A stretch of DNA of 58,954 nucleotides from Acidimicrobiia bacterium (lineage in GTDB: Bacteria; Actinomycetota; Acidimicrobiia; IMCC26256; PALSA-555): contig DASZJD010000066.1 of NCBI GenBank assembly GCA_035948415.1, positions 1 through 58,954 on the forward strand, in the 5' to 3' direction. The notes beneath the pieces are model-generated. The model did no database searches. It saw only the letters and a program-made list of their open reading frames with translations, and was not told where the DNA came from. A program made the position numbers and the translations under genes. Shown piece after piece: positions 7,243 to 15,640 of this stretch (position 1 is the first letter of the stretch; each line of letters begins with the position of its first letter).

Positions 7243-8052
7243 CTAGTGGACGCTGTCGAGCGCCAGGTTGAGGTCCAGCACGTTGATCGTCTGCTCGCCG
7301 AGCACGCCCCAGGGCCGGCTGTTTGTGTGGTCGCCGATCAGCGTGAGGACTCGCGACTTGGGGAGGTGCCGAGCGTCGGCGACCCGCTGGGCCTGCAGCT
7401 CGGCGTTGGCCACCGAGATGTCGGGGTCGAGGCCGGAGTTCGAGGCCGTCACGGCGTCGACCGGGACCGAGATCTTTTCGCCGAGGTTGTTGAGCTGCCG
7501 GTAGGCGCTGAGGCGCTCGGGCACGGTGTTCGAGGAGCAGGCGTAGGTGCCGTCGCTGTTCTTGGCGTACTTCTGGCCCGGAGTCGGGCTCGTCACCGGG
7601 TTGCCCTGCTTGTCCGTCGGCACGCAGTACGGGTCCGACGGGTTCGCGAAGGGGTTCGTCTTCGACGGGTTCCCCGCGAGGTCGACGGTGTTGAACCCGG
7701 GGATGAAGCCGACCAGCCTCGGGTCGCCGGGCCCGAAGTTCGTCGCGCCCGACGCGCCGCAGGTGGTCGAGGTCGGCGGGCACGTGGCGCCGGTCGGGTC
7801 GTACCCGCTAAGGCCCGAAGCCGAGGGCCGCGGCTGGAAGTACCGAGGGTCGGGGTTGCCGTGCTGGTCCACGAAGTTCTGGCCGATCAGCGCCGAGCCC
7901 ACGACCTTGCCGTGGCGCGTGATCAGCGAGCCGTTCGACCGGTACGGGAACGCCGCCCGGCTGACCCCGGTCACGACGAGCGGGTAGGCCACGCCCGTCA
8001 GCACAGCGAGGACGAGGGTGAGCAGGGCGGCCGGGAGGATCTGGCGGCGCAT
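7243..8052 (-). CDS. kdpC: Potassium-transporting ATPase subunit C (KdpC), with extra extracytoplasmic insertion
   Basis: KdpC is the single-span, inner-membrane-anchored subunit that stabilises and aids the KdpFABC K+ pump. The N-terminal span (LPAALLTLVLAVLTGVAYPL, residues 5-25) and family motifs GSALIGQNF, PRYFQPRPSASG, VPVDAVTASNSGLDPDIS and LGEQTINVLDLNLALD are present. At 269 residues it is longer than the usual 190-220: an insertion of roughly 70 residues at about 90-165 replaces the short usual linker and, with adjoining sequence, contributes four cysteines (two near CPPTSTTC, one in YCVP, one in YACSS). The start codon overlaps the kdpB stop by one base. Confidence 0.95.
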   Translation of the reverse strand: MRRQILPAALLTLVLAVLTGVAYPLVVTGVSRAAFPYRSNGSLITRHGKVVGSALIGQNFVDQHGNPDPRYFQPRPSASGLSGYDPTGATCPPTSTTCGASGATNFGPGDPRLVGFIPGFNTVDLAGNPSKTNPFANPSDPYCVPTDKQGNPVTSPTPGQKYAKNSDGTYACSSNTVPERLSAYRQLNNLGEKISVPVDAVTASNSGLDPDISVANAELQAQRVADARHLPKSRVLTLIGDHTNSRPWGVLGEQTINVLDLNLALDSVH

Positions 8053-10142
8053 CAGCGCATCCCCAGGGCCGCGACGAGGAGGTCGATGAGCTTGATCCCG
8101 ATGAACGGCGCGATGAGCCCGCCGACGCCGTAGATGAGGATGTTCCGGCGCAGGATCGCCGAGGCGCCCATCGCCTTGAACTTCACGCCGCGCAACGCCA
8201 GCGGGATCAGGACGACGATGATGAGGGCGTTGAAGATGACCGCCGACAGGATCGCCGAGTGTGGGGTGTCAAGGCTCATGATGTTCAGCGTGCTGAGGGC
8301 TGGGAACACGCCGACGAACATCGCCGGGATGATCGCGAAGTACTTCGCGACGTCGTTCGCGATCGAGAACGTGGTGAGAGATCCGCGGGTTATGAGCAGC
8401 TGCTTGCCGACTTCGACAACGTCCATGAGCTTCGTCGGGTCGGAGTCGAGGTCGACCATGTTCCCGGCCTCTTTGGCCGCCTGGGTGCCGGTGTTCATGG
8501 CCACCCCGACGTCCGCCTGCGCGAGGGCGGGCGCGTCGTTCGTGCCGTCCCCGGTCATGGCGACCAGGTTCCCGCCGGCCTGCTCGGCGCGGATGCGGGC
8601 CATCTTGTCCTCGGGCGTCGCCTCGGCCATGAAGTCGTCGACGCCGGCCTCCTTGGCGATGGCGGCCGCGGTGAGCGGGTTGTCGCCGGTGATCATCACG
8701 GTGCGGATGCCGAGGGCCCGCATCTCGGCGAAGCGCTCGGAGATGCCGGTCTTGACCGTGTCCTTGAGGTGGATGACCCCGAGTGTCTGTGACCCCTCCG
8801 CCACCACCAGCGGCGTGCCGCCGTCCTGGGCGATCCGCTCGACGATGGGGGCCAGGTCGGGGGGAACCTGGCCCCCTCGCTCCTCCACCCAGTGCCGCAC
8901 GGCGTCGGCGGCACCCTTGCGGATGGAGCGACTGCCCCACTCGATCCCGGACATCCGCGTCTGCGCGGTGAAGGGGACGAGCTCGGCGTCGGGCATGTCG
9001 ACCGCCGTGAGCCCGTACCGGCTCTCCGCGAGCCCGACGATCGAGCGGCCCTCCGGGGTCTCGTCGGCGAGCGAGCTCAGCAGGACGACGTTCGCCAGCT
9101 CGGCCTCGTCGTGGCCGCCGACGGGGAGGAACTCGGAGGCCATGCGGTTGCCGTAGGTGATGGTGCCGGTCTTGTCGAGCAGCAGGGTCGACACGTCTCC
9201 GGCCGCCTCGACCGCCCGGCCCGACATGGCCAGCACGTTGCGCCGGACCAGGCGGTCCATCCCGGCGATGCCGATCGCCGAGAGCAGTGCGCCGATCGTG
9301 GTCGGCGCCAGGCACACCAGCAGTCCGACCAGCACGATGATCGACTGCTCGGCGTTCGAGTAGATCGCGTACGGCTGGAGCGTCACCACGGCCAGGATGA
9401 ACACCAGCGTCAGCCCGACCAGCAGGATGTTCAGGGCGATCTCGTTCGGGGTCTTCTGGCGGTCGGCGCCTTCGACCAGGGCGATCATCCGGTCGATGAA
9501 GGTCTCGCCGGGCGCGGCGGTGATGCGCACCACGATCCGGTCGGACAGCACCTTCGTGCCGCCGGTCACCGCCGAACGGTCACCGCCGGACTCCCGGATG
9601 ACGGGGGCCGATTCGCCGGTGATCGCCGACTCGTCGATGGCGGCGATGCCCTCTACGACGTCGCCGTCGCCGGGCACGGTCATCCCGGCGGTGACCTCGA
9701 CGAGGTCGCCGATGCTGAGGTCGGTGGACGGGATCTCCTTCGTCGAGCCGTCGTCCCGGAGGACGTGGGCCATCGTCTCTCGGCGGGTGCGGCGGAGCGT
9801 GTCGGCTTGCGCCTTGCCGCGTCCTTCGGCCAGGGCCTCGGCGAAGTTCGCGAACAGGACGGTGAACCAGAGCCACAGGGAGACCAGACCGCCGAACACG
9901 CTCGTGGCGGTCGAAACCTTGTTGAGGTCGCGGAAGAAGAGGACCGAGGTCCAGACGGCGCCGATCAGCACGATGAACATGATCGGGTTCTTGGCTTCGG
10001 TTCTCGGGTTGAGTTTCAGGAAGGCGTCGCCGACGGCTCGCCGAACGATCGTCGGTTCGAACAGCGAGGTGCGACGCGTCGCGCGCAGCTCCTCTCCAGA
10101 CGGCGGGGAGGGAGGCGGCATGCTGTCGGTCGCGATGGCCAT
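8052..10142 (-). CDS. kdpB: Potassium-transporting ATPase ATP-binding subunit (KdpB)
   Basis: The catalytic P-type ATPase subunit, 696 residues, close to the family length. The phosphorylation motif DKTGTIT is present with Asp323 as acceptor; the actuator loop is AITGESAPV, and the hinge motif is [16 protein letters not shown]. Membrane spans lie near 50-90, 230-290 and 575-690. It couples ATP hydrolysis to K+ transport through KdpA in the cytoplasmic membrane. The gene starts 9 bases after kdpA ends. Base composition is visibly lower in G+C than the fatty-acid genes to the right (a sampled line at 8281 is about 62% by hand count). Confidence 0.97.
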
Positions 10143-10151
10143 CGATGCTCC

Positions 10152-11897
10152 TTAGAAGTGGCCGGCGAGGTGCTCGACGATCGGGCCGAGCGCGAGGATC
10201 GGGAAGTAGATGAGGCCGACAAGCACCACCGTGACCGCGACAAGCAGGCCCGCGAACAGTGGCGTGTCGGTGCGGAAGGTCCCGGCGGTGATGCGCGCGG
10301 TCTGCTTGCGGACGAGCGACCCCGCGATCGCCATGACCGGGATGATCGTGAAGTAGCGGCCGATCAGCATCGTCATGCCGAGCGTGGTGTTGTACCACTG
10401 CGTGTTGGCGCTGATCCCGGCGAAGGACGAGCCGTTGTTGTTCGCGGCCGAGGTGTACGTGTAGACCATCTCGGTCAAGCCGTGCGGCCCGGACGCCGAC
10501 AGCGAGTGCTGGGCCGAGTCGAGGACGATCGCGACCGCCGAGAACACGAGCGTGACGAGCGGCACCGCCAGCAGGTACACGACGACGAGCTTCATCTCGG
10601 CGCCTTGGATCTTCTTGCCGAGGTACTCCGGCGTCCGTCCGACCATGAGCCCGGCGATGAACACCGCCAGCAGCACGAGGACCAACTTGCCGTAGAGCCC
10701 GCTGCCGGTCCCGCCCGGGCTCACCTCGCCGAGGGCGATGTTCACGAGCGGGACGCTGCCGCCGAGCGGGACGAAGCTCTCGTGGGCAGAGTTCTGCGCC
10801 CCGGCCGACGTGGCCGTGACGCTGTTGGCGCCGATGCTGGCGCTGGCCACCCCGCCGATGTGGAGGTCCTTGCCCTCGAGGTTGCCGCCGGGATGGGTCG
10901 CGGTGGCGGCCTGGCTGACTCCGGACGGGAGCTTCGGGTTGCCGGCCCCCTCCAGCGGAGCGATCAGGACGAGGCCGCCGACGAACAGGACCACCATCGA
11001 GAACAGGACGACGAGGCCCTGCCCTCGCGACTTGACGAGGCGCCCGAACGTCCACGGGAACGCGAACGGGATCATCACGACGAGCCAGTAGAGGAGGACG
11101 TTCGTGATCGGATTCGGGTTCTGGAACGGGTGGGCCCCGTTGGCGTTGAAGTAGCCGCCGCCGTTGTCGCCGAGGGCCTCGATCGGCACCATGCTCCCGA
11201 CCGGCCCGCCGGGCACGCCCTGGGTCTTCACCACCGCGCCCTTCGGCGTGAGCGTCTGCACCGAGAGGGTCTGCACCGTCTTCGAGGCGTGGAAGTTCTG
11301 GATCGCGCCTTGCGAGACAAACACGAGGGCGAACACGAACGAGATCGGCAGCAGGATGCGGACCGTCGAGCGAGTCACGTCGACCCAGAAGCTGCCCAGC
11401 GTGGTCCGAACCCGCCGGGTCAGCGCCCGGATCAGCGCCACGACGACGGCCATGCCAACCGCGGCGGATAGGAACTGCTGGATGGTCAGGGCGAACATCT
11501 GGCTGAGGTGACTCATCGTCAGCTCGCCGGAGTACGACTGCCAGTTCGTGTTCGTCAGGAAGCTGACCGCCGTGTTGAACGACAGCCCCGGCGAGACCGC
11601 CTTCATGTGATCGGGGTTCAGCGGCAGGTGCGCCTGGAACCGCAGGACGGCGTAGGACAGGAGGAGGCCGGCCAGGCTGAACAGCAGCAGGGCAATCGTG
11701 TAGGTGCTCCAGCGCTGCTCGCCCTCGGCGTCGATCCGGCAGACGCGGTAGATCGCGTTCTCGATGGGCCGGAAGACCCGGTCACCCGGCGCGGGGCCGC
11801 CCCGGTAGACCTTGTACATGTAGTTGCCGAGCACCGGTGTGCTGATGACGATCAGGACGCCGAAGACGAGGAACTCCAGCCAGTTCGCGCCTGACAT
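10152..11897 (-). CDS. kdpA: Potassium-transporting ATPase potassium-binding subunit (KdpA)
   Basis: KdpA forms the K+-selective pore of the KdpFABC complex. The 581-residue protein has about ten membrane spans and the repeated pore-loop motifs of the family: SFLTNTNWQSYSGE, LGDNGGGYFNANGAHPF, TSAANNNGSSFAG and the C-terminal GRTPEYLGKKI. The length is slightly above the usual 557-565. The ATG at 11897 lies right before the kdpF stop codon, so the two are almost certainly co-translated, and kdpB follows after 9 bases. It belongs to the operon starting near 12169. Confidence 0.97.
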   Translation of the reverse strand: MSGANWLEFLVFGVLIVISTPVLGNYMYKVYRGGPAPGDRVFRPIENAIYRVCRIDAEGEQRWSTYTIALLLFSLAGLLLSYAVLRFQAHLPLNPDHMKAVSPGLSFNTAVSFLTNTNWQSYSGELTMSHLSQMFALTIQQFLSAAVGMAVVVALIRALTRRVRTTLGSFWVDVTRSTVRILLPISFVFALVFVSQGAIQNFHASKTVQTLSVQTLTPKGAVVKTQGVPGGPVGSMVPIEALGDNGGGYFNANGAHPFQNPNPITNVLLYWLVVMIPFAFPWTFGRLVKSRGQGLVVLFSMVVLFVGGLVLIAPLEGAGNPKLPSGVSQAATATHPGGNLEGKDLHIGGVASASIGANSVTATSAGAQNSAHESFVPLGGSVPLVNIALGEVSPGGTGSGLYGKLVLVLLAVFIAGLMVGRTPEYLGKKIQGAEMKLVVVYLLAVPLVTLVFSAVAIVLDSAQHSLSASGPHGLTEMVYTYTSAANNNGSSFAGISANTQWYNTTLGMTMLIGRYFTIIPVMAIAGSLVRKQTARITAGTFRTDTPLFAGLLVAVTVVLVGLIYFPILALGPIVEHLAGHF

Positions 11898-12005
11898 CTA
11901 GAGCTTCTCCGGACGAATCAGCGCGTACACGAGGTAGGCGCCGGCGAGCGCGGCGATGAAGATCCCCGCCAGGTTGTCGGCACCCATCGCCAACCCGAGG
12001 ATCAC
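11898..12005 (-). CDS. kdpF: Potassium-transporting ATPase small subunit F (KdpF)
   Basis: A 35-residue single-span peptide ending VYALIRPEKL, the typical KdpF ending (LVYALLxPExF). KdpF stabilises the Kdp complex in the membrane. The GTG at 12005 is preferred because it overlaps the stop of the upstream small gene as GTGA, a coupling used throughout this window; the internal ATG at 11987 would give a 29-residue form. The stop is adjacent to the kdpA ATG. Confidence 0.88.
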   Translation of the reverse strand: MILGLAMGADNLAGIFIAALAGAYLVYALIRPEKL

Positions 12006-12169
12006 GCGGCGCGCTCCTCGAGTGCGGGCTCCGGCTCGGGCTCGCCGCCGGGGGTCTGGGCCAGCGCCGCCTCGTCCGAGCCGATGATCTTCTCGCAGGC
12101 CACCACGAACAGGATGGAGACCAGGAAGAAGCCCACCATGATGGCCAGGTAGCTCAGGTCGTTCTTCAC
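12002..12169 (-). CDS. Small single-span membrane protein heading the kdp operon
   Basis: A 55-residue peptide: a hydrophobic span (about residues 6-25, LAIMVGFFLVSILFVVACEK) with the N-terminus short and polar, then a Glu/Pro-rich tail ending ALEERAA. GTG at 12169 has an excellent GGAGG site ten bases upstream; in-frame sequence further upstream is Arg/Ser-rich and lies in the promoter region. It overlaps kdpF by four bases (GTGA). Small proteins of this type precede kdpF in some actinobacteria; I do not know a demonstrated function. It may assist assembly or regulation of the Kdp complex. Confidence 0.75.
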   Translation of the reverse strand: MKNDLSYLAIMVGFFLVSILFVVACEKIIGSDEAALAQTPGGEPEPEPALEERAA

Positions 12170-12238
12170 GCTCCGCCTCCGGTCGCAAGTCCTTCGCCTC
12201 TGGCACGATGACCGGGACGCGCGTCGAAGTGAAGAGCT

Positions 12239-12288
12239 CTTAACGCGGACTTGACGCCGGCGGCCTTTTGTCGACGCGGGCTTAACGC
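12239..12288. promoter_or_regulatory. Putative KdpE operator: two pairs of 11-base-spaced repeats
   Basis: In the 151-base gap between the divergent kdp operon and kdpD, CTTAACGC occurs at 12239-12246 and 12281-12288. Each has a partner 11 bases away: CTTGACGC at 12250-12257 and GTCGACGC at 12270-12277. Direct repeats at 11-base spacing are the known arrangement for OmpR/PhoB-family dimers, the family to which KdpE belongs. The right pair ends about 20 bases before the kdpD -10 candidate, fitting an activator site. Binding by KdpE is inferred. Confidence 0.55.
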
Positions 12289-12308: not shown

Positions 12309-12314
12309 GATAAT
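12309..12314 (+). promoter_or_regulatory. Candidate -10 element (GATAAT) for kdpD
   Basis: GATAAT is followed by six bases and the kdpD GTG at 12321, the same spacing as at other leaderless starts in the window. It is one of the few AT-rich spots in this region. Confidence 0.5.
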
Positions 12315-12320
12315 TGCTCC

Positions 12321-14906
12321 GTGGCCAGAGGCAAGCTTCGGATCTATATCGGTGCCGCCCCCGGTGTCGGCAAGACGTACGCGATGCTCGACGAGGGTTG
12401 GCGGCGCCGTGAGCGCGGCACCGACGTGGTCGTCGGCTTCGTGATGACCTACGGCCGCCCGAAGACGATCGCCCAGCTCCGGGACCTCGAGCAGGTCCCG
12501 CCCCGCCGCGTGAGGTACCGGAACCGGGAGTGGGAGGAGCTGGACGTCGACGCCGTGCTCGCTCGCCGACCGCAGGTCGTGTTGGTCGACGAGCTCGCCC
12601 ACACGAACGTGCCCGGCTGCCGCCACACAAAGCGATGGGAGGACATCGAGGAGCTCCTCGACGCCGGCATCGAGGTGATCTCCACTGTCAACATCCAGCA
12701 CTTCGAGAGCCTGAACGACGTCGTGAACCAGATCACCGGGGTCGTGCAGCGCGAGACCGTGCCGGACGCCGTCGTGCGGCGAGCCGACCAGATCGAGCTC
12801 ATCGACATGAGCCCGGAGGCGCTCCGGCGGCGCATGGCCCACGGCAATATCTACCCCGCCGACAAGATCGACGCCGCCCTGGGGAACTACTTCCGGGTCG
12901 GCAACCTGGCTGCGCTCCGCGAGCTGGCGCTGCTGTGGGTGGCCGACCGGGTCGAGGATTCGCTCCAGGACTACATGACCGCCCGCGGCCTGCTCGGTCC
13001 GTGGGAGACGCGCGAGCGGGTCGTCGTCGCCTTGACCGGCGCCTCGGGCAGCGAGGACCTCGTGCGACGCGCCTACCGCATGGCCCGGCGCTCGAGGGGC
13101 GACCTCCTCGGTGTGCACGTCGTCCGCGACGACGGCCGGGCCAAGCCGGGCGAGAGGCGCCTCAGCCGCGACCGCGCCCTGCTCGAGGAGCTCGGCGGCA
13201 GCTACCACGAGGTCCTGGCTAGCGACATCCCGAGCGCCCTTGTCGAGTTCGCGGGCGCGCAACGGGCGACGCGGCTCGTCATCGGCACGACACGCCGGTC
13301 GCGACTCGGTGAGCTCCTGCGGGGGTCGATCATCAACCGGGTCATCCGCCTCGCGCACATCGACGTGCACGTCATCACCACCAACGCCCCGCCCAGCGCG
13401 CGCCCGGCGGGGCCGAGGATCCGGCTCTGGCCCGCCGGTCAGCGCCGACGCAGCCTCTTCGGGTTCGGGATCGCGGCGGCCGTGCTGCCCGTGCTCACCT
13501 TCGCCCTCGCCCGCGGCTCCGCGATCCGACCGGGCCACGCCGGACCGGTTAGCCCGGCCCAGGGGTTCCTGGCCTACCTGGCGCTCACTGTCGTGGTGGC
13601 CGCCGTCGGCGGCGCGATCCCGGCCTTGGCCACCGCGGTCGTGTCGGCGGCAGCCGTCGACTGGTTCCTGATGCGGCCGTACGGGACTTTCGCCCTCGCC
13701 CGAGGCTCCGACGCGGTGTCGATCCTGGCCTTCATCCTCGGCGCGGGCGTGATCAGCGTCGTCGTGGAGCGAGCGGCGCGACATCGCCTCGCCGCGGATC
13801 GCGCGCGCGACGAGTCCGACGCCGTCATGTCGCTTGCGCACCGCCTTGCCGGACCCAACCCGCCCCGAGCGGTGCTCGAAGAGATCCACGCCGCGCTGGG
13901 ACGCGAGTCGGTCGCCCTGCAGGTCCGACAGCAGGACCGCTGGATCACCGAGGCCACCGTCGGCGAGCCCGCCCCGGGTGCGGAGCCCGAGCGCTACGCG
14001 CTGCGCACCGGACAGGTCCTGGCGATGACCGGCCGGCCTCTTCACGAGCAGGAGCAGCGCCTCGCCGCCGCGCTCGTGTCGTACCTCGAGGCGGTGATCG
14101 CCATGGACCGGCTGCAGGGCCAGGCGAACACCGCGGCCGAGCTCGCCCACACCAGCGACCTGCGCGCCGCGCTGCTCGCCGCGGTCAGCCACGACCTGCG
14201 CACGCCGCTGGCCTCGATCAAGGCGCTCGCCACCACGCTGCTCGAGCCCGACGTCCAGTGGTCCGAGCAGGACACCCACGAGTTCCTCGCCACGATCAAC
14301 GCCGAGGCGGACCGGCTCAACAAGCTGGTCGAGAACCTGCTCGACATGAGCCGGCTCCAGAGCGGCGTCCTTCGGCTGTCTCGACAGGCGGTCGGCCTCG
14401 ACGAGGTGATCCCGGCCGCGCTGGCGAGCCTGAGCCAGTCGCCGCGCGAGATCGTCGTCGACGTCCCGGAGACGCTCGCGCGCGTCGACGTCGACCCGGC
14501 GCTGCTCGAGCGGGCGATCGCGAACCTGGTGGACAACGCCCTGCGACACTGCCCGGAGGACACGCCGGTGCGGATCTGCGCCGGCGAGGTCGGCGGGCGA
14601 GTCGACCTTCGCCTCATCGACCGCGGCCCCGGCATCCCCGCCGCGCAGCGCGAGCGGCTCTTCGAGCCTTTCCAACGATTCGGGGACGCGGAGAACGACA
14701 CCGGCGTCGGCCTCGGCCTCGCGGTGGCCCGAGGCTTCGTGGACGCCATTGGCGGCGAGCTCACCGTCGAGGACACGCCAGGTGGCGGCGCGACGATGGT
14801 CATCAGCCTGCCGATCGCCGCCGACCAGCCCTCCTCGTCGTCGCCGACGGCGCCGGAACCGACCCCCGCGGTCGGCTCGGTCCCGAAGCTGGCCCGTCCC
14901 ACGTGA
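12321..14906 (+). CDS. kdpD: Sensor histidine kinase KdpD
   Basis: The membrane sensor of the K+-responsive two-component system, 861 residues. In order: KdpD N-terminal domain with Walker A GAAPGVGKT (residues 11-19) and the VDELAHTN motif; a universal-stress-protein-like domain (about 235-355); four membrane spans (about 375-485); a GAF-like region; HisKA with SHDLRTPLASIK (His624 phospho-acceptor); and an HATPase domain with NLVDNALRHCP and GVGLGLAVARGF. GTG at 12321 directly precedes the conserved KLRIYIGAAPG start. The stop overlaps kdpE by four bases, so sensor and regulator are co-translated. It is divergent from kdpFABC. Confidence 0.96.
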   Translation: MARGKLRIYIGAAPGVGKTYAMLDEGWRRRERGTDVVVGFVMTYGRPKTIAQLRDLEQVPPRRVRYRNREWEELDVDAVLARRPQVVLVDELAHTNVPGCRHTKRWEDIEELLDAGIEVISTVNIQHFESLNDVVNQITGVVQRETVPDAVVRRADQIELIDMSPEALRRRMAHGNIYPADKIDAALGNYFRVGNLAALRELALLWVADRVEDSLQDYMTARGLLGPWETRERVVVALTGASGSEDLVRRAYRMARRSRGDLLGVHVVRDDGRAKPGERRLSRDRALLEELGGSYHEVLASDIPSALVEFAGAQRATRLVIGTTRRSRLGELLRGSIINRVIRLAHIDVHVITTNAPPSARPAGPRIRLWPAGQRRRSLFGFGIAAAVLPVLTFALARGSAIRPGHAGPVSPAQGFLAYLALTVVVAAVGGAIPALATAVVSAAAVDWFLMRPYGTFALARGSDAVSILAFILGAGVISVVVERAARHRLAADRARDESDAVMSLAHRLAGPNPPRAVLEEIHAALGRESVALQVRQQDRWITEATVGEPAPGAEPERYALRTGQVLAMTGRPLHEQEQRLAAALVSYLEAVIAMDRLQGQANTAAELAHTSDLRAALLAAVSHDLRTPLASIKALATTLLEPDVQWSEQDTHEFLATINAEADRLNKLVENLLDMSRLQSGVLRLSRQAVGLDEVIPAALASLSQSPREIVVDVPETLARVDVDPALLERAIANLVDNALRHCPEDTPVRICAGEVGGRVDLRLIDRGPGIPAAQRERLFEPFQRFGDAENDTGVGLGLAVARGFVDAIGGELTVEDTPGGGATMVISLPIAADQPSSSSPTAPEPTPAVGSVPKLARPT

Positions 14907-15640
14907 GCCGGGTCCTGATCGTCGAAGACGATCGCGCGCTGCTGCGCGCCCTCACCGTCAACCTCGAGGCCCGCGGCTACGACGTCGACCCCGCCTCCAC
15001 CGGGGAGGCGGCGCTGGCCCGGGTCGCGACCACCCCGCACGACGCCGCCATCATCGACCTCGGACTCCCCGGCATCGACGGCATCGAGGTCGTCGAGGGC
15101 CTGCGGGGCTGGACGTCGATCCCGATCATCGTGCTGTCGGCCCGACAGCAGGAAACCCAGAAGATCGCCGCGCTCGACGCCGGCGCCGACGACTACGTCA
15201 CGAAGCCGTTCAGCATGGGCGAGCTCCTCGCCCGCCTCCGCGCCGCGCTTCGTCGAGGCAAGCCGTCCGACCAGCCCCTGCCGGTCGTCGAGACCGGCCA
15301 CTTCAGCATCGACCTCGTGAACAAGCGCGTCCACGGCGCCGAGGGCGCCGAGATCAAGCTCACGCCCACCCAGTGGCACCTCGTCGAGATCCTCGTCCAG
15401 AACCCGGATCGGCTCGTGCCGCAGCGCCAGCTCCTCGAGGAGGTGTGGGGCCCCGCCTACGGCGACAACTCGCAGTACCTGCGGGTGTTCATGGCCCAGA
15501 TCCGACGCAAGCTCGAGCCGAACCCCGCCCGCCCCCGGTACTTCCTCACCGAGCCCGGCCTCGGCATCCGCTTCGTCCCCCGGCCCGACGCCGACGAGGC
15601 CCGGCCCGCTCCCGACGCCCCGCCCGGCAGCCGCGCCTGA
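14903..15640 (+). CDS. kdpE: Response regulator KdpE
   Basis: A 245-residue OmpR-family regulator: receiver domain (1-118) with acidic pair EDD at 8-10, phospho-acceptor Asp52 in IIDLGLPG, and Lys101 in YVTKPF; then a winged-helix DNA-binding domain (about 130-228) with LTPTQWHLVEILVQNPDRLV and YLRVFMAQIRRKLEP. KdpD phosphorylates it to activate kdpFABC. GTG at 14903 overlaps the kdpD stop (GTGA). A short Ala/Pro-rich tail follows the DNA-binding domain. It is the last gene of the block before the right-hand repeat. Confidence 0.95.
   Translation: MSRVLIVEDDRALLRALTVNLEARGYDVDPASTGEAALARVATTPHDAAIIDLGLPGIDGIEVVEGLRGWTSIPIIVLSARQQETQKIAALDAGADDYVTKPFSMGELLARLRAALRRGKPSDQPLPVVETGHFSIDLVNKRVHGAEGAEIKLTPTQWHLVEILVQNPDRLVPQRQLLEEVWGPAYGDNSQYLRVFMAQIRRKLEPNPARPRYFLTEPGLGIRFVPRPDADEARPAPDAPPGSRA

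Follow-up and report, generated by a model that had tools for sequence, protein, structure and literature searches.

Response regulators of the OmpR/PhoB family commonly bind direct repeats at a pitch of about 11 bp (PMC3264566, PMC4832192), with half-sites such as TGTCA for PhoB (PMC3264566) or the 7-bp repeats with a 4-bp spacer recognized by PhoP (PMC4832192). KdpE is the potassium-starvation regulator of the Kdp potassium pump. Its Escherichia coli kdpFABC site is TTTATA-N5-TTTACA at -72 to -50, and DNA binding by the protein requires R193, R200 and T215 (PMC3264566). Mycobacterium smegmatis KdpE protected AAGAAACCATCAAGGCCG from DNase I and required CCGTAAAGAAACCATCAAGGCC for strong binding in DNase I and EMSA experiments; the footprint covers 18 bp and the minimal site 22 bp, so that one pair of half-sites is sufficient in vitro (PMC5401905). 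The accessible text of that report describes a single 22-bp A-rich site with no mention of a repeat or a second pair, and states that KdpE does not bind PkdpD; it also cites M. tuberculosis KdpE as reportedly failing to bind its own kdp intergenic region (PMC5401905).

The window analyzed here is a 58,954-nucleotide stretch of DNA from an Acidimicrobiia bacterium (contig DASZJD010000066.1), in which a sequence-only reading had proposed a probable KdpE operator, possibly with a motif peculiar to high-GC lineages.

The kdp locus and its response regulator

The minus strand of the window carries kdpF (11898-12005; PF09604, 27.0 bits against a gathering threshold of 21.2), kdpA (10152-11897; PF03814, 699 bits), kdpB (8052-10142; E1-E2 ATPase and hydrolase domains) and kdpC (7243-8052; PF02669, 196 bits; these coordinates are those of the longest ORF and the actual start may be internal). 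Divergent from these, on the plus strand, are kdpD (12321-14906; PF02702, Usp, DUF4118, HisKA and HATPase_c) and kdpE (14903-15640), whose product is the response regulator expected on the repeats between the two transcripts. Its best PDB match is E. coli KdpE (4kny, 7.5e-66), with RegX3 the next family at 3e-43, and alignment to 4kny places the equivalents of R193, R200 and T215 within YLRVFMAQIRRKLE and YFLTEPGLG. Judged by this alignment, the protein is a KdpE ortholog that retains the DNA-contact residues. The Pfam and KdpE matches also bear out the earlier placement of the repeats between the kdpFABC-side and kdpDE genes.

The first gene on the kdpF side is an ORF encoding a small membrane protein of 55 aa (12002-12169, minus strand; VKNDLSYLAIMVGFFLVSILFVVACEKIIG...), which gave no match in a Pfam search and has related ORFs at other loci. 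This protein, roughly MxDVVFxxxxxAFFALxxLFVxxCDRIIG, is conserved between the operator and kdpF in the window and at many other actinobacterial kdp loci; in M. smegmatis the stretch from the transcription start site to kdpF is regarded as 5'UTR (PMC5401905). An Rfam search near the site returned no meaningful RNA element.

Four half-sites in two pairs

Direct reading of the sequence places CTTAACGC at 12239-12246 and again at 12281-12288, CTTGACGC at 12250-12257 and GTCGACGC at 12270-12277. On the minus strand, toward kdpF, the array reads GCGTTAAG-CCC-GCGTCGAC-N12-GCGTCAAG-TCC-GCGTTAAG. Measured from start to start, the two half-sites of a pair are 11 bp apart, the inner half-sites 20 bp and the two pairs 31 bp. 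The kdpF-proximal predicted KdpE dimer site, GCGTCAAG-TCC-GCGTTAAG (12239-12257, minus strand), scores 14.5 bits with a model from which the window was excluded and 16.0 bits with a model seeded on the M. smegmatis site; the kdpF-distal predicted dimer site, GCGTTAAG-CCC-GCGTCGAC (12270-12288, minus strand), scores 10.2 bits when held out. The weakest half-site is the degenerate GTCGACGC, which matches at six of eight positions.

The M. smegmatis PkdpF site, CCGTAAAG-AAA-CCATCAAG-GCC, has matching half-sites, the same 11-bp pitch, the same orientation toward kdpF and the same placement upstream of the kdpF promoter. In the window, by contrast, kdpD is divergent, the half-site is richer in CG, and a second pair lies 31 bp from the first. 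The E. coli site shares 6-bp half-sites at 11-bp pitch and fits the same model, but it is AT-rich and reversed in orientation relative to kdpF. Read on the other strand, as TGTAAA-N5-TATAAA, it is the top match of the model in that promoter (taken from the MG1655 record) at 19.3 bits, a score inflated in AT-rich DNA by the GC-rich background of the model; the earlier view that the motif is unlike the AT-rich enterobacterial site needs correction. A weaker pair in the same promoter (11.0 bits), a candidate only, lies 32 bp nearer kdpF than the known site.

Conservation of the array upstream of kdp operons

Most relatives have the end of kdpC in front of kdpD, and no motif was found there; the search was therefore shifted to the region upstream of kdpF. 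For comparison, the DNA ahead of kdpA (700 bp at most) was taken from 107 actinobacterial loci (the window apart) and 41 non-actinobacterial loci, M. smegmatis itself lying outside the set; related genomes are not independent, so that locus counts are not independent events. Within a phylum-wide sample of 68 actinobacterial loci, whose matches fall outside the order of the window, the spacing of paired GCGTYAAG half-sites shows peaks at 11 bp (23 loci), 21 bp (17) and 32 bp (26) only; every other spacing occurs at 0-5 loci, and shuffles give about 0.5. The 41 non-actinobacterial loci have no peak at 11, 21 or 32 bp in this orientation toward kdpF. The consensus array consists of two pairs of [GC]CGTNAAG-N3-[GC]CGTCAAG placed 32 bp apart (11/21/11), compared with 31 bp in the window, whose array is the highest by half-site matches (30/32).

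The seeded model was started from the M. smegmatis KdpE site alone and trained on the phylum-wide sample only. It scores the window array at 25.4 bits, against a null 99th percentile of 7.0 bits that is exceeded toward kdpF at 23 of 39 Acidimicrobiia-side loci and in the opposite direction at three. Sixteen loci without an array near kdpA (one, L061, a duplicate of L038) were extended upstream, and in 15 an array starts at -1075 to -1319 from kdpA, the exception being L118; scores at these far-upstream loci lie between 9.8 and 36.0 bits, with the low end of this range overlapping the top reverse-strand control at 11.2 bits. Arrays some 1.1-1.3 kb upstream of kdpA occur at L038, L039, L042-L044, L046, L053, L058, L063, L065, L068-L070 and L072. 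At the two of these that were read, L039 and L070, an additional operon-first gene lies between the array and kdpF, and by eye it encodes a DUF4118-like membrane protein similar to the transmembrane part of KdpD. By eye, a third half-site was seen in nearly all of the mycobacterial kdpF promoters inspected, some 21 bp above the known pair.

The same four-half-site layout therefore precedes kdp operons across Actinobacteria and at nearly every Acidimicrobiia-side locus. The check proposed with the sequence-only reading, whether the repeat pairs recur upstream of orthologous kdp operons, thus came out in favor of conservation throughout Actinobacteria.

Two further observations concern mycobacterial loci. 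One genome (G792) has a kdpD copy with no adjoining array; its flank is unlike kdpF, and hence uninformative on the M. tuberculosis kdp intergenic region. At another locus (L135, G406:C12 111712-113421; family f56, genus g99, taken as Mycobacterium), a KdpA with 56% identity to that of the window lies beside two further copies; a protein so unusually near that of the window is a possible case of horizontal transfer.

Promoter register and direction of the array

Of 74 kdpF-facing arrays, 23 have a -10-like TANNNT element 27-28 bp beyond the proximal pair, while any other offset is used by at most one array. The predicted kdpF -10 element of the window, CATCGT (12205-12210, minus strand), shares this register, at 28 bp from the proximal pair. 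On the other side of the array, a -10-like GATAAT (12309-12314, plus strand), recognized from sequence only, stands 20 bp from the distal pair, and just 6 bp separate it from the GTG start of kdpD, which suggests that the kdpD transcript is leaderless.

The second pair had been taken for an activator site before this kdpD -10, but both the orientation of the pairs and their distance to the -10 fit kdpF promoters instead. Among the three other loci with a divergent kdpD, two have a separate kdpD-facing site, consisting of one pair at L052 and of two pairs 32 bp apart at L158. No such separate array is present at the third (L060) or in the window, where the best kdpD-facing match in the orientation that the array takes toward kdpF reaches only 0.2 bits. 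Because L052 and L158 have their own kdpD-facing sites and M. smegmatis KdpE did not bind PkdpD (PMC5401905), we take kdpF to be the main target of the array; an effect of the window array on kdpD is possible, if unsupported.

A shared operator for both directions, with the distal pair acting on the kdpD promoter as well, either to activate it or to block it in autoregulation of kdpDE, strikes us as rather unlikely. It would account for the presence of a single array between the two divergent genes of the window, and KdpE on the distal pair, 20 bp before the kdpD -10, would presumably extend toward the -35 region. Arrays of the opposite orientation do exist, with CTTNAC-type half-sites toward kdpF in E. 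coli and several other lineages; in these, however, the distance from the last half-site to the -10-like element is some 9-10 bp by eye, against 20 bp in the window. The separate sites of L052 and L158 and the unbound M. smegmatis PkdpD also weigh against it.

A probable two-dimer KdpE operator of kdpFABC

The sequence comparisons show the array itself, how it is conserved, spaced and oriented, and that it keeps a fixed distance from a -10-like element; they also identify KdpE and the DNA-contact residues of this protein. Half-sites in 11-bp pairs that match an experimental site lie upstream of kdpFABC, are conserved, and adjoin a cognate KdpE with the necessary residues. The best explanation, which we hold with high confidence on these sequence comparisons, is that the array is the KdpE operator of kdpFABC, at which phosphorylated KdpE probably binds as two dimers and activates kdpF; binding by KdpE, simultaneous occupancy by two dimers, activation and any effect on kdpD are what we infer from the computed features. 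The proposal of a probable high-GC KdpE operator is strongly supported, because the array matches the footprint-seeded model, recurs before actinobacterial kdp operons and adjoins a KdpE ortholog.

Under the proposed mechanism, phosphorylated KdpE from the neighboring kdpE gene would bind each 11-bp-spaced pair as a head-to-tail dimer, two dimers in all. Some three turns of the helix (31 bp in the window, usually 32) would separate them, with both on the same face of the DNA. The proximal dimer would sit immediately ahead of the -35 region in the kdpF promoter, whose predicted -10 is at 12210-12205 (minus strand), and would recruit RNA polymerase at potassium limitation, while the distal dimer would raise occupancy.

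Two features of the window stand against this mechanism: GTCGACGC is degenerate, and the pairs are 31 bp apart rather than the usual 32 bp. The second dimer may also be dispensable, as the M. smegmatis footprint and minimal site needed only one pair (PMC5401905). That the proximal pair alone is functional and the distal pair a degenerate remnant would be in keeping with this in vitro binding, with the position of the weakest half-site in the distal pair and with the score of only 3.3 bits for the distal pair at the other kdp locus in the genome. Yet the 21- and 32-bp spacings are kept phylum-wide and the window array ranks first by half-site matches (30/32), and we regard it as improbable that only the proximal pair functions.

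Specificity within the genome and expectation by chance

With at most one mismatch allowed, the genome of the window holds five near-consensus pairs, two of them at kdp operons, and only at these two kdp loci does a partner pair of positive score lie 31-32 bp away; the other three have no positive-score partner at 31-33 bp. The second kdp locus (G000:C26 43903-45600 and 40366-41010; L051 and L031) has its own array, with a proximal pair of 21.7 bits and a distal pair of 3.3 bits. The three non-kdp pairs were set aside as a regulon: they have no partner pair of positive score, two are apparently inside ORFs and one lies before a small ORF. A strong single pair before a small ORF (L228, G000:C73 44733-44751; 22.3 bits, without a 32-bp partner) is, by its sequence, a possible extra KdpE target.

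This distribution bears on whether another OmpR/PhoB-family regulator, of the PhoP/PhoB, RegX3 or MtrA type, might co-regulate kdp from the array. Direct repeats about one helical turn apart are shared with pho boxes and the M. tuberculosis PhoP site, and a pitch of about 11 bp is used by much of the family (PMC3264566, PMC4832192). The half-sites of the window are GCGTYAAG, however, and neither TGTCA nor PhoP-type 7-bp half-sites were found in the array. The match to the M. smegmatis KdpE site (PMC5401905), together with the finding that, of the genome candidates checked, two-pair arrays stand only at the two kdp loci, makes a different regulator very unlikely.

Shuffling of the window confirms that the four repeats, found exactly where the sequence-only reading had placed them and at the 11-base spacing it gave, are not a chance occurrence. 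The 59-kb window contains two copies of CTTAACGC, both inside the array, against 0.17 expected, and a count of two was reached in 0 of 100 shuffles; exact CTTRACGC-N3-CTTRACGC occurs once (mean of 0.000 in 200 shuffles). The array has 30/32 half-site matches, compared with a maximum of 26 in 200 window shuffles, and scores 24.8 bits against a shuffle maximum of 14.0 (200 shuffles) with a 19-bp position model built without the window, the training set of which consists partly of its close relatives. Although CTTGAC and CTTAAC look like -35 elements, chance repeats or repeated -35-like hexamers are very improbable, as the array score was reached in 0 of 200 shuffles and the spacing and orientation are conserved.

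Possible inversion of the array between lineages

The comparison had a by-product that makes no claim on the window. At a loose threshold, and hence approximately, the phylum-wide actinobacterial sample has 39 forward and 18 reverse arrays, the reverse ones mostly clustered in certain families, and the non-actinobacterial loci with an array call have 15 reverse and one forward. Arrays inverted as in E. coli were seen at L198, L202, L195, L191, L196 (f52), L148, L150 and L171; where such inverted arrays were inspected by eye, roughly 8-10 bp separate a -10-like element from the last half-site. Tentatively, and at somewhat less than even probability, KdpE operators across bacterial phyla may be two-dimer arrays (11/21/11), not single dimer sites as described so far, whose orientation to the kdpF promoter has been reversed as a whole from one lineage to another. 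The reading toward kdpF would be GCGTNAAG in Acidimicrobiia as in many further Actinobacteria, and CTTNACGC in Proteobacteria and some actinobacterial families. If so, the same regulator would meet RNA polymerase from opposite sides, lineage by lineage.

Significance

A single two-part KdpE site was already known, and we found no description in open-access papers of the four-part layout seen across Actinobacteria. The array links the KdpE sites of E. coli and M. smegmatis, which have been called dissimilar in the literature. It predicts a second KdpE dimer, and its consensus is usable to predict Kdp regulation in high-GC bacteria.
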